Shown: positions 35,048 through 53,955 of the stretch, piece by piece
Numbering within the stretch: the first letter of the stretch is position 1
How the letters are laid out: the number at the start of each line of letters is the position of its first letter
Assembly (NCBI GenBank): GCA_017615795.1
Contig: JAFZZK010000005.1
Span: forward strand, 98,810-162,809
DNA length: 64,000 bases
Direction: 5' to 3'
From: Bacteroidales bacterium
GTDB lineage: Bacteria; Bacteroidota; Bacteroidia; Bacteroidales; WCHB1-69
The notes under the pieces: generated by a model
What the model saw: the letters and a program-made list of their open reading frames with translations, nothing else
What the model was told of the DNA's origin: nothing
The model's database searches: none
Program-made: the position numbers and the translations under genes

Positions 35048-35131
35048 CAAAAATAAAGAAACAACAGGGGAACTTGAAATTTTTGTAACCTTACAAAATT
35101 CCGACCTGCATTTCAGCATCAACTATCTTTG
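35048..35131. promoter_or_regulatory. Divergent promoter pair with central 16-bp inverted repeat
   Basis: The minus-strand -7 box TATTTTTG is at 35048-35055 and the plus-strand box TATCTTTG is at 35124-35131. Exactly midway, 26 nt from each box, lies TTTGTAACCTTACAAA (35082-35097), a 7-bp inverted repeat with a CC centre. The same arrangement with the same spacing occurs at 53872-53955. The repeat centre would be near -48 for both genes, a position typical of activator sites. Confidence 0.7.
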
Positions 35132-35156
35132 CGGCGAAATTCAAAAACAACAAATT

Positions 35157-35348
35157 ATGACACAGATCAAAGTGTTTTCCGCCCATCAGCCGGGCACAGA
35201 CGTGATTGAGAACAAAGTGAACAATTTTCTCAAGGAGAATGATGGCAAAATCATCTTCAAGGACATCAAGTATGTGGAACAACCTAAAGAGCACCACGGC
35301 AATCCATGGCACGAGTGGACGGTGGTTGTGGTTTACGAACTGCCATAG
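35157..35348 (+). CDS. Small protein, Cse60-like
   Basis: A 63-residue protein starting MTQIKVFSAHQPGTDVIENKVN. The pattern (I/V)KVFS, a helix with NxFLxEN, then IIFKDIKYVEQ and a final VVVVYEL strand resembles the small Cse60 family known from sporulating Firmicutes and also found in non-sporulating bacteria. Function unknown. It starts 25 nt after the -7 box at 35124 and probably heads a transcript that includes the next gene 45 nt downstream. Confidence 0.65.
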   Translation: MTQIKVFSAHQPGTDVIENKVNNFLKENDGKIIFKDIKYVEQPKEHHGNPWHEWTVVVVYELP

Positions 35349-35393
35349 GTTCTGCTTACGGATGAAAATGATTATCAAAACAACAGCCCAACA

Positions 35394-36986
35394 ATGAACA
35401 TCTTATATTTGCACGGTTTCGGCTCTTCAGGGCAGAGCAGCACCGTTGAATACCTGAAAAAGTCCCTGCCTGATTATTATAACATCACTGCTCCCGACAT
35501 CCCCGTGGATCCGGTGGAGGCGTTGCCGTTCCTCCGTGAACTTTGCGAGAAGGAACATTTCAGCATCATCATCGGAACGAGCATGGGGGCGATGTATGCC
35601 CAGCAACTGCCCGCCGACTTTGTGCGCATCTGCGTCAACCCGGCGCTGCATCTCTCGCAGTTAACGGATGTCCTGAAGACCGGCACTTTCGATTTCTTCC
35701 AGCCCCGCAAGGACGGACAGACACAGTTTACCATCACGGAGGAAATTATCCAGCACTATCGCGAGATGGAGGAACATCAGTTCGACAACTGGCGTCCCGA
35801 CAATCCCGAAAACCTCCTTTGTATAGGGCTGTTCGGCGACAAGGACACCACGGTGAATTGCCGCGAGGAGTTCCAGCGATACTATCCTAACGTGCAGACG
35901 TTTGCGGGCGGCCACCGCATGAACCAGAAGGTTCTTAAGAACGTTGTGGTGCCCATCATCAAGCGGTTGGAGGAATGTCGCCGGGATGCGGGACAAAAAC
36001 CCAACGCTTTCGAAAAGGTGTTGTCGTTAGCTAAGTCCGGCCTTCCCGAGGCGCAGTGGTATGTAGGGCACCATTATGAGTACTATTCCAACCATGAAGC
36101 GGGTTACAAGGAGCAAGTTGAGTACTGGTTTCGGCAAGCGGCTGAGCAGCACTACCCGCCTGCCGAACTGGCATTAGGGGAATTCCTCTATTATGGCCGC
36201 TACACCTATAGAACCGATCCCGAGTGCGAACAATGGCTGCTTCCCGCTGCCGAACACGGGGAGGCACGCGCCTGCTACTTTCTTGGGAAGCTGGCAAAAG
36301 ACAAAAAGGATATGGCAGAGGCGTGCCGATGGTGGCGCAAAGGTGCCGAAGGCGACGACGAATGGTCGCAGCAAGAGCTGGCTTTCTGCTACGAAACCGG
36401 ACAGGGTGTTCCCTACGACCTTGACAAAGCCATTGAATGGTACAAGCGAGCCGCCCTGCACGAGTTCTGCATCGGCAATGTGGATGCCTGCTACCAAATC
36501 GCCGTGCTCAAGAAGTACGCAATGGAAAAGTATGCCGACCTTATCGGCTGGGAGTCAGACCGTTTTTGGGAGGGAGAGAAAGAGATGCTAAACGGGAATC
36601 TGGCCAAAGCAGTAAGTTTGTGGCGCTGGACTCCCGATCCTCGTGCGATGGTGATGGAGGCGTGGCAGATGCTGCATGTGGTGGAGGGTGTCGTGGAAAA
36701 TGAGGGAGAAGAGTATTTCGATGACGACGAAATGTTCTTCGAGGAGGAGGAAGAAGCCATCAAGGCGGTGGCCGAGACTTTTCTCGCTGAAAAGCATCCC
36801 GCTGCCTACTATCTGAAAGGATACCTGTACGAATATGGCATCTGCTACATCAAGCCCGATGTTTTCAAAGCTGTTGACTGGTACAAAAAGGCGGCGGAAG
36901 CCGGCGACGAGGTGGCGGCGTGGAAAGTGAAGGATTTAGAAAAAGAGATGAAGGCCTCGCATTTGATTGAGGACGTGGGGATATAG
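35394..36986 (+). CDS. YqiA-type alpha/beta hydrolase fused to Sel1 repeats
   Basis: A 530-residue protein. Residues 1-195 form a small UPF0227/YqiA-like esterase domain with LYLHGFGSS at the N-terminus, nucleophile elbow GTSMG (Ser63), an acidic residue in FGDKD (Asp150 or Asp152) and His175 in AGGHRMN. From about 205 onward come Sel1-like helical repeats (GLPEAQWYVG, ARACYFLGKLA, ACRWWRKGAEGDDEWSQ, AVDWYKKAAEAGDEVAA). An acidic insert lies near 440-460. Such fusions are unusual. The esterase part is probably active by its residues. The substrate and partners are unknown. Confidence 0.85.
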   Translation: MNILYLHGFGSSGQSSTVEYLKKSLPDYYNITAPDIPVDPVEALPFLRELCEKEHFSIIIGTSMGAMYAQQLPADFVRICVNPALHLSQLTDVLKTGTFDFFQPRKDGQTQFTITEEIIQHYREMEEHQFDNWRPDNPENLLCIGLFGDKDTTVNCREEFQRYYPNVQTFAGGHRMNQKVLKNVVVPIIKRLEECRRDAGQKPNAFEKVLSLAKSGLPEAQWYVGHHYEYYSNHEAGYKEQVEYWFRQAAEQHYPPAELALGEFLYYGRYTYRTDPECEQWLLPAAEHGEARACYFLGKLAKDKKDMAEACRWWRKGAEGDDEWSQQELAFCYETGQGVPYDLDKAIEWYKRAALHEFCIGNVDACYQIAVLKKYAMEKYADLIGWESDRFWEGEKEMLNGNLAKAVSLWRWTPDPRAMVMEAWQMLHVVEGVVENEGEEYFDDDEMFFEEEEEAIKAVAETFLAEKHPAAYYLKGYLYEYGICYIKPDVFKAVDWYKKAAEAGDEVAAWKVKDLEKEMKASHLIEDVGI

Positions 36987-37013
36987 CACGGTGTTGGCGT
37001 GGCCTGCCGATCC

Positions 37014-37041
37014 GTAGAGACGCAAAATTTTGCGTCTCTAC
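37014..37041. repeat. 28-bp perfect palindrome (GTAGAGACG family)
   Basis: GTAGAGACGCAAAA followed directly by its reverse complement. A relative with a different core lies at 43000-43025. Both are followed by CAAATCCCC and the CTGCTAATAGCAG-type box. Short dispersed palindromes starting GTAGAGACG are a familiar type of interspersed repeat in this phylum. It could act as a terminator stem for the upstream gene. Confidence 0.85.
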
Positions 37042-37048
37042 AAATCCC

Positions 37049-37096
37049 CTGCTAATAGCAGAAAACGGCCCTGCATAACCATCAATCGTATTTTTG
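37049..37096 (+). promoter_or_regulatory. Repeated promoter module 1
   Basis: The box CTGCTAATAGCAG (37049-37061) is a 5-bp inverted repeat with an AAT centre. It lies 27 nt upstream of the -7 box TATTTTTG (37089-37096). The 27-nt spacer is nearly identical in module 2. It drives the WG-repeat gene starting at 37118. Confidence 0.7.
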
Positions 37097-37117
37097 CAAC
37101 GACAAAGACAGACAAAC

Positions 37118-38770
37118 ATGAAAGAATTTGAAAATTTACGCCCAGGAATCACGGTAAAACACCCCTGTCCCGACAAGTCCGCCTACGGGAAAGCACAGGC
37201 AGCCGACCTCTTTGAAGAAAACGGCCTCTGGGGACTGAAAAACGCTGACGGCACCACACTGTACCCACCCGAATACCTGTTCATCGGAAAGTGCATCGAC
37301 AACATCCTCTTCATCAAGCCCAACTGGCACTACACAAAACTGTGGCCATCTAGCTCCACCGAAAGCGGCTACCTCGGCGAGGATGAACGCCCCTACATCG
37401 TCAATGGCAAGGCGGGATTCAAAACGGGCGGCAAAATCATCATCCCCGCCGAATACGACTACCTGTCCGTCTGCTTCGGCAGCGAGGAAGGTCGGGTATT
37501 TTATGCCGTAAAGGACGGACGGGGCATGTATTTGGACGAAACCGGCAAGGAGGTGCTGACCCGGGTGCGGTGCTTCGAGGGCGAAAAGGCACAGCACTCC
37601 CCTTTCTGGCTCACCACCGACGATTTCGACTATTTCACCACAATAAACTATGTGGGCAAACCTTGTGAGCAGAACCCCAACGTGGTCAAGATTGATGGCG
37701 CATGGGTGGAGCTGGACCGCTACTGCAAAGAGGAGATTTTGCAGATGCTCATCGACCCCGCCGCCGACCTCGCCCTCACCGAAAAGAACCTGCAGCTGCT
37801 GTGCAATCCGTTCTCGTATGAATACAGTTTCTATTTCGCCAACGCCAAAGGCAAAAATCCGCTCCGGCAGTGCCTGCAGCAACTGAACCAGATGCACGCT
37901 TTCGACAACTCGTGGTATTACATTGTCAAGATATGGCAGGCACCCGGCGAGCACCTCCCGGCCAAGGAACTCCGTCAGTTTGAACGCGACCTCAGATGGG
38001 TGGACAAGCTTTTCCAGGACGAGTACTCCACGGGCGAAGAGGTCATGCTGGGCGACCCGCTCTTTGCTGTCGGCCACAGCGACCGCCTGCAGCCCGGCGA
38101 GGTGCGGATGCTGATGATCACCCACTACTACGAACGCAGCTTCCCACCCCACTTTGAATACGAATGGGTTGAAAAAAGGGAGACTCTCCCGCTGTGCCAA
38201 CTCAAAGATGAAATTCCATGGCTCCGGAATGAATTGGACACGACGATACAGGAGCCCTACCGCGAAGAGGTCTTTCAGGACCAACTGCTCAAATGCATCT
38301 CCGGCATGAAGTATTATCCAGAGCAAAGCTGGGAAGAGGCACGCGAAGCACTTGAATTCTTCCTTGAACTGGGGAGCCCTGTCCGACATTCCCTGCACTC
38401 GTTTCTGAAGCAGGCCAACCGCTATGCCAAACAAAAGAAACCCAATGCGCAAGCCGTCCGTTTCTTCCTGAACGCCGCCCTTTGGGCCATAAAAAAAGGC
38501 GACATTGTGAACGAAGTGCGCAACGGCAAATCCTCGATGGACCTCGCAAGTGCATTGTTAGCCACTCAAAACTCCTTCCACTGTTTTAACCTCCCAATCC
38601 CCAGACTCATTGACGAAATCTGTATGGCATTGATCCTGACGGGGGCTAAAACCTACCATTTATTGAAGAAAGAACGCAATGCCAACACCGACTATTTCAA
38701 GGAGTTGGAATACCTTCGGCATGAGGGAACATCCGACAAGGTGATGCCGGGACTGACCATAATCAGGTAA
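37118..38770 (+). CDS. WG-repeat-like protein, uncharacterised
   Basis: A 550-residue protein starting MKEFENLRPGITVKHPC; a longer frame from 37094 would begin inside the promoter. About residues 28-160 carry WG/KWG-like repeats (NGLWGLKNADGTTLYPPEY, GFKTGGKIIIPAEYDYL, VKDGRGMYLDETGKEV). The remaining 390 residues are helical and charged with no recognised domain. There is no signal peptide, so it should be cytoplasmic. It stands alone behind repeated promoter module 1. Confidence 0.75.
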   Translation: MKEFENLRPGITVKHPCPDKSAYGKAQAADLFEENGLWGLKNADGTTLYPPEYLFIGKCIDNILFIKPNWHYTKLWPSSSTESGYLGEDERPYIVNGKAGFKTGGKIIIPAEYDYLSVCFGSEEGRVFYAVKDGRGMYLDETGKEVLTRVRCFEGEKAQHSPFWLTTDDFDYFTTINYVGKPCEQNPNVVKIDGAWVELDRYCKEEILQMLIDPAADLALTEKNLQLLCNPFSYEYSFYFANAKGKNPLRQCLQQLNQMHAFDNSWYYIVKIWQAPGEHLPAKELRQFERDLRWVDKLFQDEYSTGEEVMLGDPLFAVGHSDRLQPGEVRMLMITHYYERSFPPHFEYEWVEKRETLPLCQLKDEIPWLRNELDTTIQEPYREEVFQDQLLKCISGMKYYPEQSWEEAREALEFFLELGSPVRHSLHSFLKQANRYAKQKKPNAQAVRFFLNAALWAIKKGDIVNEVRNGKSSMDLASALLATQNSFHCFNLPIPRLIDEICMALILTGAKTYHLLKKERNANTDYFKELEYLRHEGTSDKVMPGLTIIR

Positions 38771-38800
38771 ATAACGATACACAAGCAAAACGACAAAATC

Positions 38801-39235
38801 ATGAACCATTACACAGGAAATATCACTCCGGGAAAGGACATCATCTTTGTGTTCGGCAGCAACCCGGAAGGAAAGCACGGGGCGGGCTCGGCAAAGGTCG
38901 CCCTCCAGAAATTCGGTGCCAAGTACGGCAAAGGCGACGGCCTTCACGGCAACTCGTACGCGCTGATTACCACCGAGATGCGGAAAGGATGGCCACGCAT
39001 CACCTTGGAACAGATTACCGACAATGTGCGTCGCCTCTACGAGGTGGCGCGGAAGATGCCGGACAAAAAATTCATGATTGCCTACCGCAACCAACCCGAC
39101 CAGAGAACCCTCTGCGGCTACACGGGCGCGCAGATGATGAAATGCTTTCTCTCAGCCGGCGACATCCCCGACAACATCTGGTTCAGCGAGGAGTGGTACA
39201 AGGCCATCACAAGCTCAAAAGAACAAATATTATGA
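38801..39235 (+). CDS. Phage-type 'FVFGSN...HGAG' domain protein
   Basis: A 144-residue protein beginning MNHYTGNITPGKDIIFVFGSN. The motif FVFGSNPEGKHGAGSAKVA, then GLHGNSYALIT and a later MIAYRNQP, match a small domain common in phage and prophage hypothetical proteins (FVFGSNLAGRHGAGAA type). The layout of glycine motifs and strands resembles a Rossmann or macro-like nucleotide-binding fold, but that is an inference. Its stop codon overlaps the start of the following LRR gene (ATGA), indicating coupling. Confidence 0.7.
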   Translation: MNHYTGNITPGKDIIFVFGSNPEGKHGAGSAKVALQKFGAKYGKGDGLHGNSYALITTEMRKGWPRITLEQITDNVRRLYEVARKMPDKKFMIAYRNQPDQRTLCGYTGAQMMKCFLSAGDIPDNIWFSEEWYKAITSSKEQIL

Positions 39236-40614
39236 GTTTAGACATTTACGAAAGAAGAGAGTACCGCCAAAACGGCTTCGTCTATCTACTTGACGATGAA
39301 GAGAAAACGGCGTGGATTAAGCATGGCCGCATCAAGCGGTGCCGCCGTTACCGCCTGCCCGACTATATGATGATCGACGGAGTGCGCTACACCATCGTCG
39401 GTGTAGAAGCCGGTGCTTACAACCATCCCCGCACACTCCACCATTTGGTGATCTCCGACAGCATCCACGATTTTGACGAGTATTGTTTCGACGGCTTCAA
39501 GAATCTGGAATCCATCCATCTAGGCAAAGGATGGGATTATCTGGACGGCTGGTATTTCATCAACTGTCCCAAACTGCGGACAATCCATATTGACAAATTC
39601 AATCCGTACCTGAAAGTACATGACGGGATGGTGCTGTCAAAAGACGGGAAAAAGGTGTATCTGGGATTCTCAAACCGCAAGCACCTCACCATTCCCGAGG
39701 GTGTGGAAGAAATTGGGCAGTATGCTTTCTGGCATCACAAGAAACTGGAAACCATACAATTTCCGAAGACACTTCGCAAGATAGGCGACAACAGTTTCTC
39801 CAACTGTCCGAAATTACGCAGTGTGGTGCTTCCCGAAGGTTTTAGGGAATGTGTTGTGCAGAGTTTCATAGAAAACGAGAACTTGAATCTCATTGATTTT
39901 CCTGCCACCTTTTTAAAGTTGGGTTATCAAACGATGGTAGTTTGTCCTAACCTGCAGACCATTGTGCTTCGAGCACCGCAAGTGGTGGAGACATCGGATG
40001 GCCATCCCTACGGCGGCATACCCACCGACACCTGTCGTCTGTACGTGCCTGCCGATTTAGTGGAGCTGTATCGGAAACATCCTGTGTGGAAGGCGTTTAA
40101 GTATATTTTCCCCATCGAAAAATATGCCAACTATGAAATTCCGTTTCAAACCCTATCAAATCACGATGATGTGTTCGACCTCAACAAAATCCCAATAGAG
40201 GTTTTGGACAAAGGATGGAAACGATACCGTCCATATTTGCTAAAGGGAGATGAACAACATCCCTTGCAGTTCGGCAGGCCAATCGGAGGCGACACACCAC
40301 TCTCTGTTCTCCAAAACATAAGAGACGTGATTACCCATACTTTTGAGATTGATGAAAAACAATTTGTCATAACAGAAGATAAGGGGGAGCCATTGATTTC
40401 CATTCTCATTGCCCTCTGCGATGACAATGTGGAGGTGATGGAAGCGGCGATGCAGACACAATGGTATTTCAAAGAGAATTCCCCCTGCAACCAACTGCTG
40501 GAAGACCTCAAAGGACGCCGATGGATGAATGTCCGTTTCAAAATCAAAGACAGACCCCGCTACCAATCTGCATGGGACCATCTTTGCGAGATTGAAAATA
40601 ACGTAGGAAAATAG
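39232..40614 (+). CDS. BspA-type leucine-rich repeat protein
   Basis: A 460-residue protein from the ATG at 39232 (MSLDIYERREYRQNGF), which overlaps the previous stop codon. The frame is open further upstream, but only over the preceding gene. Residues about 45-240 contain LRR_5 repeats (FDGFKNLESIHLGKG, FINCPKLRTIHID, LTIPEGVEEIGQYAFWHHKKLETIQFPKTLRKIGDNSFSNCP in successive units). The C-terminal 180 residues are not repetitive and match nothing I recognise. No signal peptide, so it is an intracellular member, unlike the surface BspA proteins. Confidence 0.83.
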   Translation: MSLDIYERREYRQNGFVYLLDDEEKTAWIKHGRIKRCRRYRLPDYMMIDGVRYTIVGVEAGAYNHPRTLHHLVISDSIHDFDEYCFDGFKNLESIHLGKGWDYLDGWYFINCPKLRTIHIDKFNPYLKVHDGMVLSKDGKKVYLGFSNRKHLTIPEGVEEIGQYAFWHHKKLETIQFPKTLRKIGDNSFSNCPKLRSVVLPEGFRECVVQSFIENENLNLIDFPATFLKLGYQTMVVCPNLQTIVLRAPQVVETSDGHPYGGIPTDTCRLYVPADLVELYRKHPVWKAFKYIFPIEKYANYEIPFQTLSNHDDVFDLNKIPIEVLDKGWKRYRPYLLKGDEQHPLQFGRPIGGDTPLSVLQNIRDVITHTFEIDEKQFVITEDKGEPLISILIALCDDNVEVMEAAMQTQWYFKENSPCNQLLEDLKGRRWMNVRFKIKDRPRYQSAWDHLCEIENNVGK

Positions 40615-40652
40615 TATTTTTACAAAAAAAGAGAACCAATAATCCCAAAACC

Positions 40653-41453
40653 ATGCATATCGATACCATTTACAAATTGACCCTTTACAACACACGGCCA
40701 CCACGTCGGGAAAAATGCCATTATCCAACCTTTCATTTAGAAGGCCGTGAATCGGCCTATTTCCGTACCAAAGAGGATGCGGAAGCAGCTATGCCCCACA
40801 TTTGCGGCCACAGCTTGAGCGACCGCTATTGCTGGGTGTTGAGCGAACTGCCGTTGGGGATGACTTTTCTCCCTGAGGAAAGTTTCTCGGAAAGAGTGTA
40901 CCTCCCCGACGGACAGCTCTGGAGCGAAAGACCGTATGCCGACATGTTCCCCTGTGACATCCCCAGGCCATACAGTGAGATTGAATTTGACAACTATGTT
41001 TATGGCCGTCGCTTTTTTGCTGGAAGAAGACCTGAGGAGATACGCTTCCAACCGGGCGACATCATTGAAATTCTCTGTTACCCAGGCAATCACTACTGGG
41101 GAGACGGCTCTGTGGAGTTGGCCATTGTAATCAACACGCCTCCCACAGTGGATGAAATAGCAAAACGAGCAGAGCATTATCTGAAAACCGCCAAAGATCT
41201 CACGGGCGACCGCGGCTTCGATCTCGGCACTACTTTTGATGTGCATAACGATACGTATGCCATCGTCTCCGCCTACGTGTCCGCCGATACGGAGGATAAC
41301 CCCGTCGACTTTTGTCCTACCCATTGTGCCATGATGCCTCGGATGGAGATGGTTTCCGCCCGGATGCGAAACAAGTTGGAGCGATTGCGGGAGAAAGTGA
41401 TGGCGAACGAAGATTGGCTGAAAAAACTGAAAAGGCATGATATTCTCTGCTAA
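40653..41453 (+). CDS. IRFQPGD-family protein A, uncharacterised
   Basis: A 266-residue protein, the most divergent of four paralogues in the window. It begins MHIDTIYKL, like MKTIFKL and MDTIFKL in the others. It has the linker YLPDGQLWSE in place of YTADGQPND, and the core GRRPEEIRFQPGDIIEI followed by VELAIVINTPPT. Its last codons form part of the CTGCTAATAGCAG box of the next promoter. A weak -7-like TATTTTTA lies about 30 nt before the start. Function unknown. Confidence 0.75.
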   Translation: MHIDTIYKLTLYNTRPPRREKCHYPTFHLEGRESAYFRTKEDAEAAMPHICGHSLSDRYCWVLSELPLGMTFLPEESFSERVYLPDGQLWSERPYADMFPCDIPRPYSEIEFDNYVYGRRFFAGRRPEEIRFQPGDIIEILCYPGNHYWGDGSVELAIVINTPPTVDEIAKRAEHYLKTAKDLTGDRGFDLGTTFDVHNDTYAIVSAYVSADTEDNPVDFCPTHCAMMPRMEMVSARMRNKLERLREKVMANEDWLKKLKRHDILC

Positions 41454-41494
41454 TAGCAGAAAACGGCCCCGCATAATCATCAATCGTATTTTTG
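41447..41494 (+). promoter_or_regulatory. Repeated promoter module 2
   Basis: CTGCTAATAGCAG (41447-41459) lies 27 nt before the -7 box TATTTTTG (41487-41494). The box overlaps the stop codon of the preceding gene. The spacer differs from module 1 at only two positions or so. Confidence 0.7.
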
Positions 41495-41573
41495 CGGCGT
41501 GAAATTTGGAAATAGAAATTACGAACATAAAAGATACCAATACGAAGTTTCAGAATTATATAGAGCCCTTTGT

Positions 41574-42236
41574 ATGAAAACCATCTTCAAACTTGAAAAA
41601 TGCTATTTGAAAGAGCATTGCCGGATGCGGGAGCACGGTTTCATCCGGCCGGCAGGCTATCTCGACCTGGGATTCTTCTCCTCTCGGAAAAAAGCGGAGA
41701 AGTTCATGCGGCAGTACATTGCCGACACCTGCGACCCCAACACATTCGCTTTCTTCATCTTTGAGGACATGGTGGACGGAGTCCGATATTCCACCCGTTT
41801 CGCTTGCAAGTCGCGCTACTCCTATACGGCGGACGGCAAGCTGAACGACTACAGCGACGTGTCCACCAATGGGAAAGCACGTTACTACGGGCGGACACCC
41901 GACCGAATCCGATTCCAACCCGGCGACATCGTGGAGGTGACTGATTACGACGGGATTGAACTGTGTATCGTGGCAGCGCCTCCGCGCACAGTGGAAGAGT
42001 GTCAGGCCATGATGGAATGTTGCAGGGAACATCTTCGCAAATACCTCCACCGCGAGCCCACACCGCAAGAGGTGGCCGCCGACTACCCGCTGGACGACAC
42101 CGACGACACCTACTGCGTGCTTCAACACTACGGCGACGGTGCCCACGAGCATCTGCCCCCTATCTCCTTATTCAAACCCACCCGAAGAATCACCAAAGCA
42201 CAGCGCGAACTGCTGCTGTCGTTGAAACAAAAATAA
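41574..42236 (+). CDS. IRFQPGD-family protein B, uncharacterised
   Basis: A 220-residue protein starting MKTIFKLEK at 41574. A GTG at 41499 opens a longer frame, but it lies almost at the predicted transcription start and the added residues do not match the paralogues. Shared features are GFFSSRKKAEKFM, SYTADGKLND, YGRTPDRIRFQPGDIVEV, ELCIVAAPPRTVEE, DDTYCVL with a following HEH, and a C-terminal FKPTRRITKAQREL. The leader of about 70 nt behind module 2 is longer than for the other genes. The next paralogue starts 13 nt downstream. Confidence 0.78.
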   Translation: MKTIFKLEKCYLKEHCRMREHGFIRPAGYLDLGFFSSRKKAEKFMRQYIADTCDPNTFAFFIFEDMVDGVRYSTRFACKSRYSYTADGKLNDYSDVSTNGKARYYGRTPDRIRFQPGDIVEVTDYDGIELCIVAAPPRTVEECQAMMECCREHLRKYLHREPTPQEVAADYPLDDTDDTYCVLQHYGDGAHEHLPPISLFKPTRRITKAQRELLLSLKQK

Positions 42237-42249
42237 AAACAACAATTTT

Positions 42250-43002
42250 ATGAAAACCATTTTTGAATTAATCCGGATTTACACCAGCAGCAAAGCGCGC
42301 TATCCGCTCAGGAAAACCCGCACATACGACCTGGGGCTGTTCTCCACCTTGGCGAAAGCGGAAACGCAGATGCGCAAAGATGTGAATGAGTGCCAAGAAT
42401 ACGAACAGGAACGGCTGAAAGACATTGCCGAAGACGAAGAAAGCCGCAACGATGAAAAACGCTTCGGGCACGAAATTGTGTTGGCATACAAGATTACGGA
42501 GTACGAACTTGACATGGAGATTTATAACAGTACCCAGTCGGTGCGCACCTACACCGCCGACGGGCAGCCCAACGACGAATGCCTGCTTGACACCGCTTGC
42601 GAACGCCATTTCAAAGGCCGCACACCCGACCAGATCCGCTTCCAGCCCGGCGACATCGTGGAGGTGATTACCGAATGGAGAGCGGAGCTCTGCGTGGTGG
42701 GACACGCACAACCCACGACAGAGGATTATGCTAACTATCGCAAGCGCTGTTGGGAAGAATGTAGAAAAGACTGCTCAAAGCCACCATGTTGCGATAAAAG
42801 CATTGACTACAAGGAGGAGTACTGCAGATTCCATTGGGATTACAGCGACGACGGATATTTGACGTATTCCCTCGGAGAGGGCGACACCCACTTCCATCCC
42901 GAATCGCCTTTGGTGTTCCGTCCCACCAAGCCCGTGTCGAAAGCGTTGCGGGAGAAACTGCGGGCGAAACTTGAGGAGATGAAACGGCTCCATGAACCAT
43001 AG
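42250..43002 (+). CDS. IRFQPGD-family protein C, uncharacterised
   Basis: A 250-residue paralogue starting MKTIFELIRIY. It matches protein D (53975) along most of its length: LGLFSTLAKAETQM, SVRTYTADGQPNDECLLD, FKGRTPDQIRFQPGDIVEV, ELCVV, DYSDDGYLTYSL, HFHPESPLVFRPTKPVS. A Cys-rich insert (CWEECRKDCSKPPCCDK) near residues 165-185 is peculiar to this copy. Probably co-transcribed with protein B. Its stop codon lies beside the 26-bp palindrome at 43000. Confidence 0.78.
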   Translation: MKTIFELIRIYTSSKARYPLRKTRTYDLGLFSTLAKAETQMRKDVNECQEYEQERLKDIAEDEESRNDEKRFGHEIVLAYKITEYELDMEIYNSTQSVRTYTADGQPNDECLLDTACERHFKGRTPDQIRFQPGDIVEVITEWRAELCVVGHAQPTTEDYANYRKRCWEECRKDCSKPPCCDKSIDYKEEYCRFHWDYSDDGYLTYSLGEGDTHFHPESPLVFRPTKPVSKALREKLRAKLEEMKRLHEP

Positions 43003-43025
43003 AGACGTTTCATGAAACGTCTCTA
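43000..43025. repeat. 26-bp perfect palindrome (TAGAGACG family)
   Basis: TAGAGACGTTTCA followed by its reverse complement; same family as 37014-37041 with a different core. It overlaps the stop codon of the gene before it and is followed by CAAATCCCC and promoter module 3. Confidence 0.85.
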
Positions 43026-43032
43026 CAAATCC

Positions 43033-43080
43033 CCGCTAATAGCAGAAAACGTCCCCGCATCATTTCCGATCGTATCTTTG
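43033..43080 (+). promoter_or_regulatory. Repeated promoter module 3
   Basis: CCGCTAATAGCAG (43033-43045, one change from the other two boxes) lies 27 nt before the -7 box TATCTTTG (43073-43080). The gene starts at 43105. Confidence 0.68.
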
Positions 43081-43916: not shown

Positions 43917-45005
43917 TTACGGATTTTTATTACAAATTTTTGCAATGTTATCCAAAACGTTTTTAATAACTTTAAATTCTTTATTCAGATCAAGAGTCTT
44001 GAAGTAAATAACATTGCCTTGGTTAAAGGTCATTTTTCCATCTAAAACTTGTGTGGGATCTTCGGGTTGAGCATAGAGTAGCATTCCATCAACTTTCCCT
44101 TCCTTTTTTTTGTCATGATTGAAAACATAAGATTCGATTTGGTACAAATTCCACGTGTGTAGCTTTTTTTTATCGTAGCGGGTAGTCAAAGTTCTGCCGT
44201 AATATTTTGCATCAATTATTAGAGTTCTCTCATTTCCGTTTCTTTTCTCTCCATTTAGCATTATATCAGTTTGCATAGTTGGAATATATTCCTTGTCAGA
44301 AGCGCTTTCATCAATATTCCAATCTACGTATGGTGCTTTGGGGTCTAAATAATGATGTTCTTTCTGAAAATAACCCAGCAGAAATTTCTCGTATAACCGA
44401 CTCATTTTTTGATCATCGTCCCAAAAACCTTTCATTTTGGTTGTACCATCTTTTTCATTAATGATTTTTGTGTCAATGACTAAAAAACAAATGTAAAGGA
44501 GCATAGGATATAGCCCGCTGTTTCTGTTGAATTTGAGATTGTTCCATTTAACAGTATCAAGTCTAATGGTCTTCACATTATCAAACAGCAATAGAAGCTG
44601 CTTGATTCTCTGTTTCCTTTGAGAATCCACATCGGATTTTCCTTTGAGAATCAGCAAAGTGGATTTAATAATTTGATTAAAGACATTGTCTTCAGACCAC
44701 TCGTCAAACTCACATGCCAACTCCAATTTGTTTTGAATCCGATTGGCAATGGTTCCTTGCAGATCTAATTTTCCTCGAAAAGAAGGTAAGGATTCGTTTT
44801 GTATGATATATGTTTTATGCAGACCCTGCTTGGCTTGTTGAGAAACTCCCAATATGAGCATTTCGGAGAAAAGATCATCAATGTTATTAAATTTCTCTTT
44901 TCCTATTCTTTCCTCAATGGCCTTTAAAGAGAGATTGCAAAAAGCATACGACAACATATAAAATATGTTGAGGACAGGGATATTCTTGTTTTGTCCGCTT
45001 ATCAT
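43917..45005 (-). CDS. mcrC: McrC-like nuclease subunit of a McrBC type IV restriction system
   Basis: A 362-residue protein of the McrC/LlaJI family. The N-terminal half is helical, with IPVLNIFYMLSYAF near the start and LPSFRGKLDLQGTI around residue 75. The C-terminal PD-(D/E)XK site is visible as TDIML followed by LIIDAKYYG (about 243-275). McrC binds the McrB ring and cuts DNA containing modified bases. It lies 4 nt downstream of mcrB. The segment is more AT-rich than its neighbours, which suggests horizontal acquisition. Confidence 0.9.
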   Translation of the reverse strand: MISGQNKNIPVLNIFYMLSYAFCNLSLKAIEERIGKEKFNNIDDLFSEMLILGVSQQAKQGLHKTYIIQNESLPSFRGKLDLQGTIANRIQNKLELACEFDEWSEDNVFNQIIKSTLLILKGKSDVDSQRKQRIKQLLLLFDNVKTIRLDTVKWNNLKFNRNSGLYPMLLYICFLVIDTKIINEKDGTTKMKGFWDDDQKMSRLYEKFLLGYFQKEHHYLDPKAPYVDWNIDESASDKEYIPTMQTDIMLNGEKRNGNERTLIIDAKYYGRTLTTRYDKKKLHTWNLYQIESYVFNHDKKKEGKVDGMLLYAQPEDPTQVLDGKMTFNQGNVIYFKTLDLNKEFKVIKNVLDNIAKICNKNP

Positions 45006-45009
45006 ATTC

Positions 45010-46464
45010 TTACTTTAATGCATTGAGAAGATTAACGGACTCTTGTTCAAATGTTTTTGTGTCATCAAACCAATACTCCTTAAGCATAGGAATGATATCG
45101 AAGTTGATGATATTTTTCAATTTTATAATGTCAATGGGAGATGATAATTCACAGAAATAACTGTGACCAATGCAAAAGCCATCACCAAGGGAGGCAGATA
45201 TTTTTTGATTTAAATCTTTAACAGCTTGTATTACTTGTAAAACTTTATCATCTTTTGGTGAAGTGAATGGTTTTTTCAATATTAATGAATCAAATTCAGG
45301 TTTCATATCGTAGAAAGAGAATCGTCTGCGCAATGCATAGTCAATCATGGCCAGACTGCGGTCTGCCGTGTTCATCATGCCAATAATGTATAGATTCTCA
45401 GGTACGGAAAACAGTTCATCTTTATATGCTAGCTTAACTTCTTCTTTTCGATGATTGTTTTCAATCAACATCAAGAGTTCTCCGAAAATTTTGCTGAGAT
45501 TGCCTCTGTTGATCTCGTCAATAATAAAGAAGTATGGCTCATTGGATTTCTCTGCTTCTTTACAAAACTTATAGAAAATGCCTTCTGTCAAGTCAAAACC
45601 ACCATTATTATTGGGTTTGTAGCCCATCACAAAGTTTTCGTATGCATAATTCTGATGAAACTGCACAAAGTCTATTCGACTGTCGTCTTTTTCCTCCATT
45701 ATGGCGTATGCCAACCGTTTTGCAGCATAAGTCTTTCCTACACCGGGTGCGCCCTGAAGAATAATATTCTTCTTTGTTTCAAAAAGCGTTTTCAATTCAC
45801 TGAATCTATTGTTGTCAAAGCCAAAGACGTCTTTGCAAAAATCAGTATCGTTGTAAGATGAATTTTGATGTGCAGTTGGGGTAGATTTTGGGGTAGAAAC
45901 AGGTGAAACTATAGGTGTCGAACTGGATGTCGAACTGCTAAGGATGGACGGAATATTGTTGACGGCAGTTGTAAAATCTGCCAAAGTCAGCACTCCTTTG
46001 TTTATCATCATGAGGATGATCTCAACAAATTGATCCGGAGTAATTTCTTTGAAAGAACATTGATTTTTTCCGTCAGCTACGATGTTTTGGGTTTTAGTAT
46101 TATTGAGCAATTCTTGTCTGGAAAGAAAAGGATTTTTAACGTCAATAACTTTAGAGTATTCCACATCTGTGCCATTGTTTTCCCGAGATACGACAAATAT
46201 TGATACAACACAGGTGAAACCAACTTGTCCTTTTTGGGGACCGCTTGTTTTATAACCAATTACAAGATTTCCTTTTTTTGCATTTTTAAATGCATTTTTG
46301 TTTTTATGTGTAATATCATAACATTGAATATTCTGATTTAACATATCCCATATTTTAGGATCGTCATTCAGCCACCAAAATTGTGTGTTAAGGTTCGCTG
46401 ATTTAAGAATGTTTTCAATTTGAGTCTGGTTGATTTGAGTCTGGTTGATTTTAATCTTTGCCAT
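45010..46464 (-). CDS. mcrB: EVE-domain McrB-like AAA+ GTPase
   Basis: A 484-residue motor subunit. Residues about 20-160 resemble an EVE domain (FWWLNDDPKIWD, GNLVIGYKTSGPQKG), a reader of modified bases. A Ser/Thr/Pro-rich linker follows (about 174-202). The AAA+ domain has Walker A GAPGVGKT (238-245), Walker B FFIIDEINRGNLSKIFGE, the McrB signature MNTADRS, and RRRFSF with arginine fingers. EVE-McrB fusions are known among type IV systems. Two tandem 15-nt units encode NQTQI twice at residues 7-16. The promoter box is at 46567-46574. Confidence 0.9.
   Translation of the reverse strand: MAKIKINQTQINQTQIENILKSANLNTQFWWLNDDPKIWDMLNQNIQCYDITHKNKNAFKNAKKGNLVIGYKTSGPQKGQVGFTCVVSIFVVSRENNGTDVEYSKVIDVKNPFLSRQELLNNTKTQNIVADGKNQCSFKEITPDQFVEIILMMINKGVLTLADFTTAVNNIPSILSSSTSSSTPIVSPVSTPKSTPTAHQNSSYNDTDFCKDVFGFDNNRFSELKTLFETKKNIILQGAPGVGKTYAAKRLAYAIMEEKDDSRIDFVQFHQNYAYENFVMGYKPNNNGGFDLTEGIFYKFCKEAEKSNEPYFFIIDEINRGNLSKIFGELLMLIENNHRKEEVKLAYKDELFSVPENLYIIGMMNTADRSLAMIDYALRRRFSFYDMKPEFDSLILKKPFTSPKDDKVLQVIQAVKDLNQKISASLGDGFCIGHSYFCELSSPIDIIKLKNIINFDIIPMLKEYWFDDTKTFEQESVNLLNALK
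46421..46450. repeat. Two perfect 15-nt tandem units inside mcrB
   Basis: TGAGTCTGGTTGATT occurs twice in direct tandem at the 5' end of mcrB, adding an NQTQI pentapeptide each time. A change in copy number would keep the frame. Confidence 0.85.
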
Positions 46465-46670: not shown

Positions 46671-46927
46671 GGAGATCCCGTTTTGCATCCTTGCCCGTGC
46701 GAGTCATCGGTTGGTTTATCAGGCAGTGGCTGCCCTCGCGGGTGCTTGCTTCTCGCTTACGGCAAAACGGAATGACGCACGCTGCCGAATGAACCCAAAG
46801 GGGGAAAGATGGGCGGCGATCGCAAGAACTCCGGCAACGGCACGTCCCTCCCCGCCGCCCATCTTTCCCCTTTTTTCCCGTATGCGAAGCACCATTCCGC
46901 ACGCGACAGCGTTGAGGGGAATCTCCT
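46671..46927. repeat. Long imperfect palindromic element, copy A
   Basis: The element runs from GGAGATCCC to GGGAATCTCC (one mismatch between the ends). It holds an inner inverted repeat in which GGGGAAAGATGGGCGGCG pairs with CGCCGCCCATCTTTCCCC, around a centre containing GGCACGTCC. Outer arms include GGAATGACGCACG and CACCATTCCGC. Copy B is at 49683-49864 in the same orientation. The rest of 46465-47053 holds the mcrBC promoter and nothing recognised. Confidence 0.75.
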
Positions 46928-47053
46928 GCTAACTCTTTACATATTCTGCGGCAAAGATATCTTTCCCAAAAATGCGGCTTGGGATTTTGTATGGTTACAA
47001 AATTGAACTGCAACCAATGCCCTTGTACTAATGTGACATCGTCGTTCACATTT

Positions 47054-48295: not shown

Positions 48296-48324
48296 CAAAA
48301 ATAAAAAAATATTTCGTATCTTTG
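48296..48324. promoter_or_regulatory. Back-to-back -7 boxes
   Basis: TATTTTTG on the minus strand (48296-48303) serves the DUF4143 ATPase. TATCTTTG on the plus strand (48317-48324) starts a short transcript that meets a strong hairpin at 48404. They are only 13 nt apart. Confidence 0.6.
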
Positions 48325-48330
48325 CCACCG

Positions 48331-48440: not shown

Positions 48441-48467
48441 TCATCTCTGGCATTAAAACCTGCTGGA

Positions 48468-48491
48468 GTACAGGCAACCAGCATTCATTTT
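48468..48491 (+). repeat. 24-nt direct repeat, copy 2
   Basis: Identical to 43642-43665. This copy ends at the base before the ATG at 48492, so it would form the ribosome-proximal leader of that gene. Confidence 0.8.
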
Positions 48492-48815: not shown

Positions 48816-48860
48816 TGGGTGATATTTTGCAAATCAGTAATTTGTTTGAACAATAAGAAC

Positions 48861-49568: not shown

Positions 49569-49682
49569 ATACAAATCATTAATGCAAAACAGAATGATGA
49601 CACGCTGATTGGTGATGGTTACGCTGGTGGAGTGTGCATATTCGTTGCAGCCCACTCTAACAGATTGAATTGAAACAAGTTG

Positions 49683-49864
49683 GAGATTCCGCATCAACGC
49701 TGGCGCGTTTGCGGAATGGTGCGTCGCAAGGGGCTGGAAAGAGGAATGGGCGGCGGCAGGTGGTAATGACTGAAAGGCACGTCCAATCCGCCGCCGCCCA
49801 TTCCTCCCCTCCTCCGGCGGCGCGCACCATTCCGCCTGCGAACGCAGTGAGCGAGCGGAATCTC
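49683..49864. repeat. Long imperfect palindromic element, copy B
   Basis: A 182-bp element bounded by the perfect 10-bp inverted termini GAGATTCCGC and GCGGAATCTC. Inside, GCGGAATGGTGCG pairs with CGCACCATTCCGC, and AGGAATGGGCGGCGG pairs with CCGCCGCCCATTCCT, around a centre with GGCACGTCC. It matches copy A in order and orientation. It accounts for most of the 49569-50129 gap; the rest is AT-rich and holds the promoter at 49953. Confidence 0.78.
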
Positions 49865-49952
49865 TTCCTCGCCAGAGCACTGCTCCAGCGACACCCCCCA
49901 CCCAAAAAGCATTTTTCTTTTAGATTTCAGCACATTATTTCCCGAATTTTGC

Positions 49953-49960
49953 TACTTTTG
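49953..49960 (+). promoter_or_regulatory. -7 box for the restriction-modification enzyme
   Basis: TACTTTTG on the plus strand, about 170 nt before the start codon. The long leader is unusual for this window. Confidence 0.45.
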
Positions 49961-50129
49961 CTCGTTCAAATGAGATTTTAACAAATAATAGTAAATGTTA
50001 GAAAAATAGAGTATTTAACATAGTATAAACCATAGCGTTTGCGATTTATTCGAGACATTCCGAAAATTTGGCGATTAGAAGATGTTCACTTGAGAATAAG
50101 TTCCAACCGCTATACAAAAGCACTAAATT

Positions 50130-53105
50130 ATGGTAAAAAGCATCGAAGAAAAAATAGAAGACATTGCTAAACAGCAATTGAATGATTTCAATGTGAAATA
50201 TTTCACTAAGACGGAGAGCATAAACACTGAAATTGACGAGGCTTTGAAAAACGCACCAAGCAAGAATGGCGGAAGTGGGGCTAATTATCCTGACATAAAG
50301 TGCTTTGTAGAATATAATGGTCGAAAACTTCCAATAATGATTGAGATAAAAGGTCGGGAAGAAGACCTTGAAAAACTCAATGATTTGGGCGAGGTTGACA
50401 ACTATGATAAAAATGACATGCCTATATACGCCAACATCGCAAAATATGCTGTAAATGGAGCTGTCCACTACGCAACTGCAATAGTAAACTTGACAGACTC
50501 ATATAAGGAGGTGATTGCAATAGGATTCACAGGATGGGAAGAGGGAAAAGATACAAAAACAGCCATGCGCGTCTATTATGTTTCCGATGAGAATTACAAT
50601 GTTCCAAAACTTGTAGATGGTTATGATGATTTTTCGTTTTTGACAGGCAAAGAATTGGACGATTTTGTTGAGAAAATCGATGCTCTGTATCTAACCGAGG
50701 CCGAAAAAGAGAAACTTACACAAAAATTAGAAACTCAAATTGAATCCAACTTAAAAAAGTTAAATCAGGAGATGCAGGATGTATACTCGATAAGTGAGGG
50801 TTACCGAGTAAAACTTATTTCGGGTATGATTATGGCCGGACTTGGTGTGGAAAAAGACGGCAAACAAATTGTCGCCCCACTTGAAATTGACCATTTGCTC
50901 AGTAAGGAAGAAAAGAAATCACACGATGGCATTACAATTATGAATACTATTGAGTCATTTCTTGAAACCAAGGAAATACCGCAGGAAAAGAGAGAACTCC
51001 TTAAGACAACCTTTGAACAGGTTTTTATTCAGACAGACCTCTACAAACAATACAAAGAAGGTGAAAGTCGTTTAAAGAAAGTCTATATCACTGTGAAAAA
51101 GGATATTGTTCCGTTTTTCACAAAGAAAAAATACCATCTCGATTTCACTGGAAAATTGTTCAATGTGTTGAACGATTGGGTGAAAATTCCCGACGGCGAC
51201 AAAAACGATGTCGTTCTTACTCCGCGATATGTTTGCGATTTGATGGCAAAACTTTGTAGGGTAAACAAGGACAGCTTTGTGTGGGACTATGCTGCAGGTT
51301 CAGGGGGGTTCCTTGTTGCCGCAATGAAACAGATGGTCAGTGAAGCCAACAAAATCGAAGACAAAACCGAACGTGATGCCAAAATCAACAGCATAAAGAT
51401 GAAACAACTATTGGGCGTGGAACTGCGTCCCGATATGTACGCTTTGGCTGTTTTAAATATGATACTGATGGGAGATGGTTCCACTCATATTTTGTGCGAC
51501 GATTCATTGAAGAATTACAGCGGAAAGTACGAACAAGGGCCCGAAAAAGACGAGGCGTTTCCTGCTGATGTCTTTCTTCTAAATCCTCCGTATTCTGCTG
51601 ATGGCAAAGGATTTAACTTCGTAGAACTCGCACTTGATCGTATGAAAGGCGGGTATGCTGCAGTTTTGATTCAAGAAAATGCGGGCAGTGGCAACGGAAA
51701 GCCGTTTACAAGACGAATCCTCGACAAGAATACGCTTGTTGCCTCGATAAAAATGGGCGATATATTCTGTGGAAAGTCAGGGGTGCAGACAGGAATTTAT
51801 GTTTTTGAAGTCGGGCACTCCCACCCCGAGAAAAAACGAGTTATGTTCATTGACTTTACAAACGATGGTTATGCCCGTCAGAGCCGCAAAAAATCAAGTC
51901 AAGAGGTAAACCTCAGAGATACAGACAATGCTACTGCACGTTACAAAGAAATTGTGGATATTGTGCTTAACTGTGAACCGGAAACCAAGTATTATACAAA
52001 AGAAAATGGCCTTTGTGTGACCGATACAATAACTACGAAAGAGGCCCTTGTTGAACACGAGAAAAAAATCTACAAGATTAACGAACAACTTGACCCAATA
52101 CGCAAAGAGTTGCTTGCAAAACAGAAAGAACTCAAAGAGAATGAAAAGGCTCTGAAAGAAAATGAGAAACAACTTGCCAAGGCAAAAAATGATGAAGACA
52201 AAAAGGTTCTAACCGAGGAAGCCGAAAAACTGAAAAAACTCAATGATAAAATCCAAAAGGAAATAACGGTTATTACTCTTAAAAAAGAACCAATAGAAAA
52301 AGACCTTGCTGCCGCCCAAAAGGTGTATAATGATATTGATAACCGCATCGGCGCGGATTGGACTTACGGACAGCACCGCAAAATTGACACCGTGCCTACC
52401 GAGGCGGATTTCCGCAAAACAGTATTCGACTATTTGAGTTGGAAAATAACATCTTCTATAAAAAGCGGACAAGGATTACAATCAATTATAAAACAGGAAT
52501 TACTTAATGATTTTTCTCAATCTGAAACAGATGCCTTTAATAAACTGCGAGAAGGAAATGTGGAGTGGAAAGAATTTAAGGTTGGTGATTTGTTTGACAA
52601 GCCTGATCTGAAATTTAAAAAAACTACCAAGTTTAATAAAAAACTTGATGTTTCAAGAGAACAAACAGCGGAATATGCTTTGCCATTAGTGAATGCAAAA
52701 GATGGCGATAATGGCATTATGTATTATGGCAGACTAACAGACTTCGATTTTGAAGAAATGACGATTGATATTGTGAATGATGGAGCAACTTCAACGGGCA
52801 ATGTTTATTCTCAGCCGCAAAAAACAGGTGTTCTGTATAATGCATATTTGATTAAGCCAAAGAACGTTGCAGTAAATGAAAACCTTTTACACTTCTTCAC
52901 AACGACAATTTTAAAGTCCATAAAAACGAAATTTAGTTATGAGCGTAAAGCATCTTGGGAACGAGTCCAAAATGAGTTTATTTATCTACCCGTTACTCAC
53001 GACGGCGAAATAGATTTGGATTTTATGGAAAATCTCATTTCTGCAGAATGCCGTCTTGCTATCAGGGGAGCTATTGAGGGGAAAGACGAGGGTATGCAAA
53101 AATAA
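50130..53105 (+). CDS. Single-chain restriction-modification-specificity enzyme (type IIG/BcgI-like)
   Basis: A 991-residue protein combining three activities. The N-terminal nuclease shows PD (54-55) and ExK (72-74) in YPDIK and IMIEIKGRE. The adenine-N6 methylase has SAM motif I DYAAGSGGF (386-394) and catalytic NPPY (485-488), with LTPRYVCDLM upstream as in HsdM. A long charged coiled coil fills about 637-735. A C-terminal target-recognition domain of HsdS type runs from about 811 (EWKEFKVGDLF) to 985. Such enzymes cut and methylate DNA as one chain. No separate HsdR or HsdS gene is next to it. The gene is AT-rich compared with its neighbours. Confidence 0.88.
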   Translation: MVKSIEEKIEDIAKQQLNDFNVKYFTKTESINTEIDEALKNAPSKNGGSGANYPDIKCFVEYNGRKLPIMIEIKGREEDLEKLNDLGEVDNYDKNDMPIYANIAKYAVNGAVHYATAIVNLTDSYKEVIAIGFTGWEEGKDTKTAMRVYYVSDENYNVPKLVDGYDDFSFLTGKELDDFVEKIDALYLTEAEKEKLTQKLETQIESNLKKLNQEMQDVYSISEGYRVKLISGMIMAGLGVEKDGKQIVAPLEIDHLLSKEEKKSHDGITIMNTIESFLETKEIPQEKRELLKTTFEQVFIQTDLYKQYKEGESRLKKVYITVKKDIVPFFTKKKYHLDFTGKLFNVLNDWVKIPDGDKNDVVLTPRYVCDLMAKLCRVNKDSFVWDYAAGSGGFLVAAMKQMVSEANKIEDKTERDAKINSIKMKQLLGVELRPDMYALAVLNMILMGDGSTHILCDDSLKNYSGKYEQGPEKDEAFPADVFLLNPPYSADGKGFNFVELALDRMKGGYAAVLIQENAGSGNGKPFTRRILDKNTLVASIKMGDIFCGKSGVQTGIYVFEVGHSHPEKKRVMFIDFTNDGYARQSRKKSSQEVNLRDTDNATARYKEIVDIVLNCEPETKYYTKENGLCVTDTITTKEALVEHEKKIYKINEQLDPIRKELLAKQKELKENEKALKENEKQLAKAKNDEDKKVLTEEAEKLKKLNDKIQKEITVITLKKEPIEKDLAAAQKVYNDIDNRIGADWTYGQHRKIDTVPTEADFRKTVFDYLSWKITSSIKSGQGLQSIIKQELLNDFSQSETDAFNKLREGNVEWKEFKVGDLFDKPDLKFKKTTKFNKKLDVSREQTAEYALPLVNAKDGDNGIMYYGRLTDFDFEEMTIDIVNDGATSTGNVYSQPQKTGVLYNAYLIKPKNVAVNENLLHFFTTTILKSIKTKFSYERKASWERVQNEFIYLPVTHDGEIDLDFMENLISAECRLAIRGAIEGKDEGMQK

Positions 53106-53408
53106 TTGTCGATAGTGTATCTCGTTCTGCGCTTGTGTGTGGATTTCTGAGAGCATATGCCTTCTGCACACGGGTGGGCACTGCCAGTTGCGCTCTCGGC
53201 GAAAGCAGCTCTTGGTAGCCTTACCCAAACAAATCACCCATCGCAACGGTGGCGTGGAAGCGGTCGGAATAGGCGTTCAGAATTCCTTTAGATGGTATTA
53301 TACCATTGCCGAAAGTGGTAAAATTTTTGAGATTCGGCACAAGTATAATTCGGCAGTCCACCACATATTCCTCTTGATGACTTCCGCACCGGGGTCTTAC
53401 GTATGCAA
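53106..53408. other. Intergenic stretch, possibly decayed coding sequence
   Basis: About 300 nt without a credible complete gene. On the minus strand a 67-codon frame (53221-53424) reads like protein (FTTFGNGIIPSKG, NAYSDRFHATVAMGDLFG). After its stop the same frame continues without obvious disruption. It may be a remnant of an older gene, but I cannot name it. Confidence 0.3.
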
Positions 53409-53810
53409 TCAGTCGTCTTCCCATTTCACGGCATCCGCAGTGGCTTTGTCGGTTGCAGCATCGATGTTGTCGGCTACAAAACGGTAAATGTCGGGATACG
53501 AGGAAGGATGAATTTCATTAACGGTGATGTCTGCCCAACTATTCGGAAAATCCTCTTCGATAAAGCCGCACCCGATATGATCCACCATTGCTTTTACGCA
53601 AATATGGTTTTTGCTATTCAGCCCAACTCCGTAAATGCTAATAAAAACATCATCCAAAGAGGTTGTGTCAACTTCATCGTTCCAGTCAGGAATGACAATA
53701 AAGCGACCATTCGGATTGTTTTTTAATAATTCAATTGTGGCTTCGAGGGATTTCTCATAGAGTTTCTCTGCTTGCTTTTTAAATTTCTGTGAATCAAGTT
53801 TTTCTTTCAT
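53409..53810 (-). CDS. Uncharacterised small protein
   Basis: A 133-residue protein starting MKEKLDSQKFKKQAEKLYEKS. An N-terminal helix is followed by alternating strands (GRFIVIPDWND, DDVFISIYGVG), a Cys (HIGCGFIEEDFP) and an acidic C-terminus. No family recognised. It is transcribed from the -7 box at 53872-53879, the minus-strand half of a divergent pair with a central inverted repeat. Confidence 0.7.
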   Translation of the reverse strand: MKEKLDSQKFKKQAEKLYEKSLEATIELLKNNPNGRFIVIPDWNDEVDTTSLDDVFISIYGVGLNSKNHICVKAMVDHIGCGFIEEDFPNSWADITVNEIHPSSYPDIYRFVADNIDAATDKATADAVKWEDD

Positions 53811-53871
53811 TTTTTTGTATCTAATTGATTAATAATTGTTTGTTGTTTCATTTGTGCCACGTATTCGTTGA

Positions 53872-53955
53872 CAAAGGTACAGAAACTTGATTTTCGATGT
53901 GAGAATTTGTAACCTTACAAAATCCGGAACCGAATATGCCCCATAATTATCTTTG
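53872..53955. promoter_or_regulatory. Second divergent promoter pair with central 16-bp inverted repeat
   Basis: The minus-strand -7 box TACCTTTG is at 53872-53879 and the plus-strand box TATCTTTG is at 53948-53955. TTTGTAACCTTACAAA lies at 53906-53921, exactly 26 nt from each box. The geometry and repeat are identical to 35048-35131, although the sequences between repeat and boxes differ. Confidence 0.72.

Follow-up and report, generated by a model that had tools for sequence, protein, structure and literature searches.

In a 64,000-nucleotide stretch of DNA from a Bacteroidales bacterium of the family WCHB1-69 (contig JAFZZK010000005.1, positions 98,810 to 162,809; this whole stretch is called the window), palindromes stand at a fixed distance upstream of TAnnTTTG promoter boxes. 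To judge from sequence comparison, these palindromes are quite probably the operators of one regulon, read by an undescribed regulator family whose members are probably activators. The likely reader in the window is the product of gene 55111-56295, a candidate member of such a family of the order Bacteroidales. A dimer seated on the palindrome near -46 would help RNA polymerase to start at TAnnTTTG, and branches of the family would read different palindromes at the same distance, namely IR1 (TTTGTAAC/GTTACAAA), IR2 (TGCTAnTAGCA), IR3 (TGCAAGnCTTGCA), and others.

Palindromes at a fixed distance from the promoter box

A preliminary description of the window reported two copies of a 16-mer, TTTGTAACCTTACAAA (IR1), each flanked by divergent TAnnTTTG boxes at exactly 26 nucleotides (nt) on all four sides, with differing flanking bases. 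Both copies and all four distances are confirmed, and the spacers between IR1 and the four boxes are indeed unlike. Overlooked at that time were a third copy with one mismatch (site C), which has a box on one side only and none at its other flank, and three further promoters with a different palindrome, IR2 (TGCTAATAGCA or a variant), found by checking, for each TAnnTTTG box of the window, whether a palindrome stands at the relative position of IR1. The sites and their boxes are as follows.

35082-35097, IR1 site A, TTTGTAACCTTACAAA, common to two divergent promoters
35048-35055, minus strand, -7 box TATTTTTG, 26 nt from IR1 site A
35124-35131, plus strand, -7 box TATCTTTG, 26 nt from IR1 site A
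53906-53921, IR1 site B, TTTGTAACCTTACAAA, common to two divergent promoters
53872-53879, minus strand, -7 box TACCTTTG, 26 nt from IR1 site B
53948-53955, plus strand, -7 box TATCTTTG, 26 nt from IR1 site B
46986-47001, minus strand, IR1 site C, TTTGTAACCATACAAA, one mismatch
46952-46959, minus strand, -7 box TATCTTTG, 26 nt from IR1 site C
37050-37060, IR2, TGCTAATAGCA, 28 nt from the box at 37089-37096 (plus strand)
41448-41458, IR2, TGCTAATAGCA, 28 nt from the box at 41487-41494 (plus strand)
43034-43044, IR2 variant, CGCTAATAGCA, 28 nt from the box at 43073-43080 (plus strand)

Counted from the start of the box (its first base), the IR1 dyad is at 34.5 and the IR2 dyad at 34.0, so that the two distances are equal within half a base. 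The TAnnTTTG box is placed at -12 to -5 in Flavobacterium psychrophilum according to PMC9723704. With that placement, both dyads would lie near -46, and the IR1 centre, earlier put near -48, would be corrected to about -46.5. At sites A and B, the symmetry of the palindrome together with the equal distances would let one site serve two divergent genes. Five of the six IR1 flanks in the window have a box at the one distance of 26, for which the chance at a preset distance is about 9e-17 given the box density of the window and 3e-13 given the density upstream of long open reading frames (ORFs). Allowing up to three mismatches, IR1 has eight matches in the window compared with 0.54 expected from shuffled sequences. 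Throughout the source assembly (2.04 Mb in 51 contigs, 87% complete), the pattern TTTGTAAVSTTACAAA occurs with up to two mismatches at ten places, just three of which, sites A, B, and C, have boxes at 26 nt.

Random distances between IR1 and promoters elsewhere, which the preliminary description named as a refuting outcome, are not borne out. A scan of genome_contigs for IR1 plus a box, with gaps of 21 to 31 allowed, gave 23 matches. Thirteen have a gap of exactly 26 (including L161, where the match lies inside a coding ORF), and all of them fall in Bacteroidales or Paludibacteraceae records. A further two, from Paludibacteraceae, have a gap of 27; the other eight are spread over other gaps, five in Anoxybacillus, Paenibacillus, Clostridium, Stoquefichus, and Melainabacteria and three in Bacteroidota records. 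The palindrome is extended in most of the Bacteroidales loci, AG preceding it and CT following it. Viral contigs contained no IR1-plus-box match. Among 104 genomes of the family, the exact combination is present in the source genome alone (1/104); this was first read as a lack of conservation, a reading that was dropped as relatives within the family use IR2 and IR3. A scan for IR1 with three mismatches matched at least 80 of the 104 genomes, its reversed control also matched too widely, and it is left out of all counts.

With gaps of 13 to 43 allowed, IR2 has 44 matches in 24 of the 104 family genomes (3 for the reversed pattern), of which 36 lie at 28, 3 at 27, 1 at 29, and 4 elsewhere. The third palindrome, IR3, was reached via weak paralogs of the candidate regulator in the family and yields 40 matches in 22 genomes (control 3), with gaps of 28 in 19 cases, 27 in 12, and other values in 9. 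In many of these loci, though not in all, IR3 is placed before the paralog gene or before a short operon that includes it. It is exceptional for one palindrome to serve boxes at the fixed distance on both sides. The fetched DNA contains 79 distinct site contexts, 74 of them one-sided and five two-sided (two IR1, both in the window, two IR2, and one IR3).

Some features adjoin these sites. Perfect hairpins, TAGAGACG...CGTCTCTA, occur at 37015-37040 and 43000-43025, directly upstream of two of the IR2 promoters. Beyond site C, the next ORF on the same strand with a family match (45010-46464, AAA_5) begins about 490 nt downstream and adjoins an McrBC-type gene. A dispersed repeat with inverted parts lies downstream of the same site at 46797-46930 and is also matched at 49682-49756 in the window and in the loci L094, L132, L178, and L188; the gene of site C may have been lost to it.

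A candidate regulator and its relatives

Although the preliminary description considered the regulator not identifiable in the window, a good candidate is present whose family is linked to the palindromes.

55111-56295, plus strand, candidate regulator, 394 amino acids (aa), with a C-terminal domain found in proteins beside IR1, IR2, and IR3 elsewhere

The gene begins 44 nt after gene 53975. Gene clustering over 21 loci, chosen mostly for their IR2 sites, placed one protein in 12 of them, the window protein included. Elsewhere, 14 IR1 loci are available (12 with a gap of 26, two with 27); in nine, IR1 coincides with the stop codon of a gene for this C-terminal domain or is no more than 160 nt away from it, and in a tenth such a gene is 0.8 kb away. 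Across the 104 genomes, IR3 is found in 19 of 24 with an IR3-type protein versus 3 of 80 without. Likewise, 13 of the 18 genomes that have a strong match to the full-length protein (E up to 1e-50) contain IR2 (gap 27-29), compared with 8 of the 86 others. The corresponding Fisher tests, in which IR3 bearers were taken without a gap filter and three genomes with odd IR2 gaps only (G029, G036, and G048) were not counted as IR2 bearers, give p values of 2e-13 and 9e-8; because of the linkage between sites and genes and the relatedness of many sequences, these values overstate the independent evidence, a point that counts against the proposed family.

Palindrome type also follows the protein tree. 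A tree of 48 domains unites the IR1-associated proteins in one clade (100/100), to which two TTGTCAAC-linked proteins of a single genome are sister. The IR2-labelled rows form one side (100/98), which also includes the window protein and two rows without a label (L124 and L129). A row took its label from a palindrome next to the gene, but some IR2 rows were labelled by one within the same fetched stretch; L217 was labelled as IR1, and L218 and L220 as IR3 on weaker palindromes. Both unlabelled rows have a near-IR2 palindrome, TGCTACTCGCA, 28 nt from a box, and its relaxed pattern had no match in 152,297 control bases. One short segment reads mostly NALNVKKSQCN in the IR1-clade proteins and mostly NSINEKCSRI or NSINEKCTRI in the IR3-associated proteins, and might constitute the DNA-reading part.

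The association extends to families outside the defining set. The domain was detected at E up to 1e-5 in 16 of 247 genomes drawn over the order, the source genome included. A palindrome with at least seven of eight pairs and a dyad 33-36 nt from a TAnnTTTG box is present in 10 of 19 regulator loci (L225, from the source genome, being excluded) versus none of 20 OmpR-type loci, whereas all other distances tested gave four in the regulator loci and four in the OmpR-type loci. At a threshold of six of eight pairs, there are 16 sites versus 1 in the control at 33-36, and 34 versus 23 at other distances. The ten loci represent eight distinct sites, all within 1.5 kb of the gene and not always immediately before or after it. 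Their palindromes are IR1-like, IR2, IR3-like, or new, such as TTGTCAACGTTGACAA. L217, which is not among the ten, encodes an IR1-clade protein and has, by eye, half an IR1 at the stop codon.

What the comparisons show directly are the sites, their fixed distance, their recurrence in other genomes, and the linkage between protein branch and palindrome type. We infer that the product of 55111-56295 binds DNA, dimerizes, responds to a signal, reads IR1 in the window, and activates rather than represses. It also seems somewhat probable that Bacteroidales and their kin possess a broad, undescribed family of activators with a novel DNA-binding domain, whose operators changed repeatedly among paralogs without the dyad leaving its place about 34-35 nt from the -7 box. 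Such a family would govern accessory islands, RNA-repair, restriction, and helicase-like genes included. The half-sites in the proposed family are TGTAAC, GCTAnTAGC, TGCAAG, GTCAAC, and GACAAG.

No IR1-type regulator was found in phage records and no IR3-type regulator in viral contigs. Plasmid records hold two partial matches to the C-terminal domain, both from Prevotellaceae, with no palindrome at the standard distance. No NCBIfam relative of 55111-56295 was found by sequence, and PADLOC gave no match for 34199, 53409, 53975, or 55111. The literature searched yielded nothing on these palindromes or proteins, judging by titles and the beginnings of abstracts. In three loci (L093, L094, and L096), genes for an RtcB-like RNA ligase and a release-factor-domain protein adjoin the regulator gene of the IR2 cluster, an arrangement that presumably resembles RtcB-PrfH pairs.

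Objections and competing explanations

Several observations weigh against a regulator family reading these palindromes. The window protein groups with the IR2-type proteins, outside the IR1 clade, whereas the window has three IR1 and three IR2-type sites; 55111-56295 is the sole family match in the incomplete source assembly, and either one protein may serve both palindromes or a second regulator may be missing from that assembly. The IR3-associated proteins sit on poorly resolved intermediate branches rather than in a single resolved clade, 9 of the 48 tree rows have no assigned palindrome, and L231 has an IR1-like site, yet encodes a distant protein outside the IR1 clade. Eight of the 21 genomes with IR2 (gap 27-29) lack an IR2-type regulator even in a lenient search (E up to 1), among them G028, G030, G062, and G081, which are given as at least 95% complete; G030 and G062 hold IR3-type proteins only, and G028 a 39-aa scrap. 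Conversely, 5 of the 18 genomes with a strong regulator match have no exact IR2-plus-TAnnTTTG; near versions occur in three, and the fetched loci of the other two, G026 and G059, contain no IR2-like site. Outside the family, the site in L222 falls inside the end of a long ORF. The candidate domain itself has no significant match to Pfam or PDB sequences (its best Pfam hit, DUF5697 at E 0.026, is below that family's cut-off), and its comparison with an OmpR-type winged-helix profile by hhalign gives E 0.16, with 0.36 for the reversed control.

The preliminary description had also proposed one activator driving both directions. The single regulon and the operator at a fixed place are retained, while activation itself is a matter of interpretation. 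The regulator might instead repress, with a dimer at -46 hindering polymerase rather than recruiting it, which we consider somewhat unlikely. Many local autoregulators are repressors. Moreover, IR1 in other Bacteroidales often abuts TTTTG at -33, and the TTG at this place in 8 of 12 such spacers is a further point against activation; those promoters may therefore be active alone. In the window IR1, IR2, and IR3 spacers, by contrast, a TTG 18-22 nt before the box is absent (0/5, 0/28, and 0/28, respectively) but present in 58 of 269 control promoters. This absence, and the exact box distance kept across three operator types, speak against repression and fit an activator that would contact the polymerase.

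Less probable still, and on the whole unlikely, is that an unrelated regulator encoded elsewhere (e.g., of the CRP/FNR, TetR, or S24/LexA-like type) reads the palindromes and that proteins of the 55111 type merely travel along as members of the regulon. The eight IR2-bearing genomes without a detectable IR2-type protein would be explained in this way, as would the frequent position of IR3 before the gene or operon of its own protein, as expected for a target, and the lack of a match by sequence between the candidate domain and any DNA-binding fold. Against such a reader stands the sorting of palindrome types with the branches of one protein family. In addition, IR1 is often located immediately behind the protein gene and ahead of the one that follows, so that the protein is not simply a target there, and palindromes at the right distance occur near these genes in families outside the defining set.

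Mobile or recombination elements with a promoter of their own and without a dedicated regulator are a very improbable explanation for the repeats. Accessory genes, paralogs, and dispersed repeats are indeed common around the sites, and L145 has two near-identical IR1 promoters before different genes. However, the spacer between palindrome and box in the window is kept in length and not in sequence, which copying would not yield, and the palindromes differ among branches while their position is kept. Mere coincidence of the shared 16-mer and its spacing, for which nothing speaks beyond the A+T richness of intergenic DNA, can be set aside as negligibly probable, being already contradicted by the shuffle expectation, the five of six flanks, and the recurrence in other genomes.

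Target genes and relation to known regulators

The four genes flanking IR1 sites A and B were described earlier as uncharacterized, and they have no Pfam or NCBIfam match. They are listed here with the next gene on the plus side of site A.

34199-35008, minus strand, target gene, 269 aa, no family match, IR1 site A side
35157-35348, plus strand, target gene, 63 aa, no family match, IR1 site A side
35394-36986, plus strand, next plus-side gene, UPF0227 plus Sel1 repeats
53409-53810, minus strand, target gene, 133 aa, no family match, IR1 site B side
53975-55066, plus strand, target gene, 363 aa, no family match, IR1 site B side

In G056, which belongs to a different genus within the family, locus L098 comprises, in a row, a regulator gene, an IR2 promoter, a homolog of 34199 (73% identity), and a homolog of 53409 (76%; the second gene behind the same IR2 promoter). 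Their window counterparts, 34199 and 53409, are the minus-strand genes of IR1 sites A and B, respectively. IR2 also precedes a homolog of 53975 in G006 and a further homolog of 34199 in G011. Because homologs of 34199, 53409, and 53975 thus stand behind IR2, regulon membership appears to have been kept for three of the four target genes while the operator changed. None of the fetched loci yielded a relative of 35157.

The targets are accessory and mostly without a family. Genes behind or near the promoters encode Sel1, LRR, and (weakly) WG repeats, an AAA protein, a DnaB-like protein, and a DUF2828/DUF7788 protein, and the neighbors of these promoters include RtcB and a release-factor-domain protein. 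The first genes behind IR1 elsewhere (eight scanned) are mostly family-less and include a restriction-type helicase and a DUF4846 protein. This content is compatible with a role in stress or defense without showing either. Three tandem paralogs of the site-B target 53975 occupy 40653-43002. Between the IR1 sites lie an McrBC-type gene with an AAA partner (43917-46464) and a type IIG-like restriction-methyltransferase (50130-53105). A tRNA gene (33955-34025, plus strand) is located just ahead of the accessory region that starts at 34199, and Rfam at gathering scores detected only this tRNA within 32000-57000; the accessory region may be an island at the tRNA.

Among the closest known systems are class II activators of sigma-70 promoters (CRP/FNR-like), whose dyad is at -41.5. 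As in the system described here, their palindrome has the size expected for a dimer and keeps one distance from the core promoter, which it directly precedes. A weak or absent upstream promoter element may be shared too: TTG at -33 is missing from all 61 IR2, IR3, and window IR1 spacers, although 8 of the 12 IR1 spacers elsewhere have it. The present system differs in the dyad, which would lie near -46, and in the Bacteroidota-type -7 box; furthermore, Pfam finds no Crp-type helix-turn-helix or cyclic-nucleotide-binding-like domain in 55111-56295. The OmpR/PhoB winged-helix regulators have a similar order of conserved segments, by eye, and a domain that is likewise C-terminal. In contrast to them, the candidate has no Trans_reg_C domain (Pfam) and no significant profile similarity, and its sites are palindromic, whereas PhoB sites are tandem.

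Among Bacteroidetes, the palindromic operators of the non-canonical LexA (S24) SOS repressors have diverged with regulator branches, and their sites, with the motifs GGA-N5-TCC or CTAA-N5-TTAG, precede the regulator gene, according to the available part of PMC8565304. Operators diverging with regulator branches, sites before the regulator gene, and occurrence in Bacteroidota are thus common to both systems. However, 55111-56295 contains no S24 peptidase domain (Pfam scan of this protein), IR1, IR2, and IR3 match neither motif on inspection, and the same part of PMC8565304 mentions no fixed operator position. WYL-domain activators such as SiwR, in the excerpt of PMC10693628, resemble the present system in controlling adjacent genes; Pfam finds no WYL domain in 55111-56295. 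Since, for every named family tested, either a defining feature is absent or membership could not be demonstrated, the candidate is best placed among palindrome-binding regulators acting at fixed promoter positions, and not in any named family.

The preliminary description had caught the visible end of a probable regulator-operator family. If so, this would be a regulator family with no relative in Pfam, NCBIfam, or PDB by sequence whose operators, set at a fixed place, can be predicted, and regulons would become readable from sequence in uncultured bacteria. Its branches would offer naturally occurring cases in which to study changes of operator specificity under constant promoter geometry, and they might furnish orthogonal promoters for laboratory work with Bacteroides.

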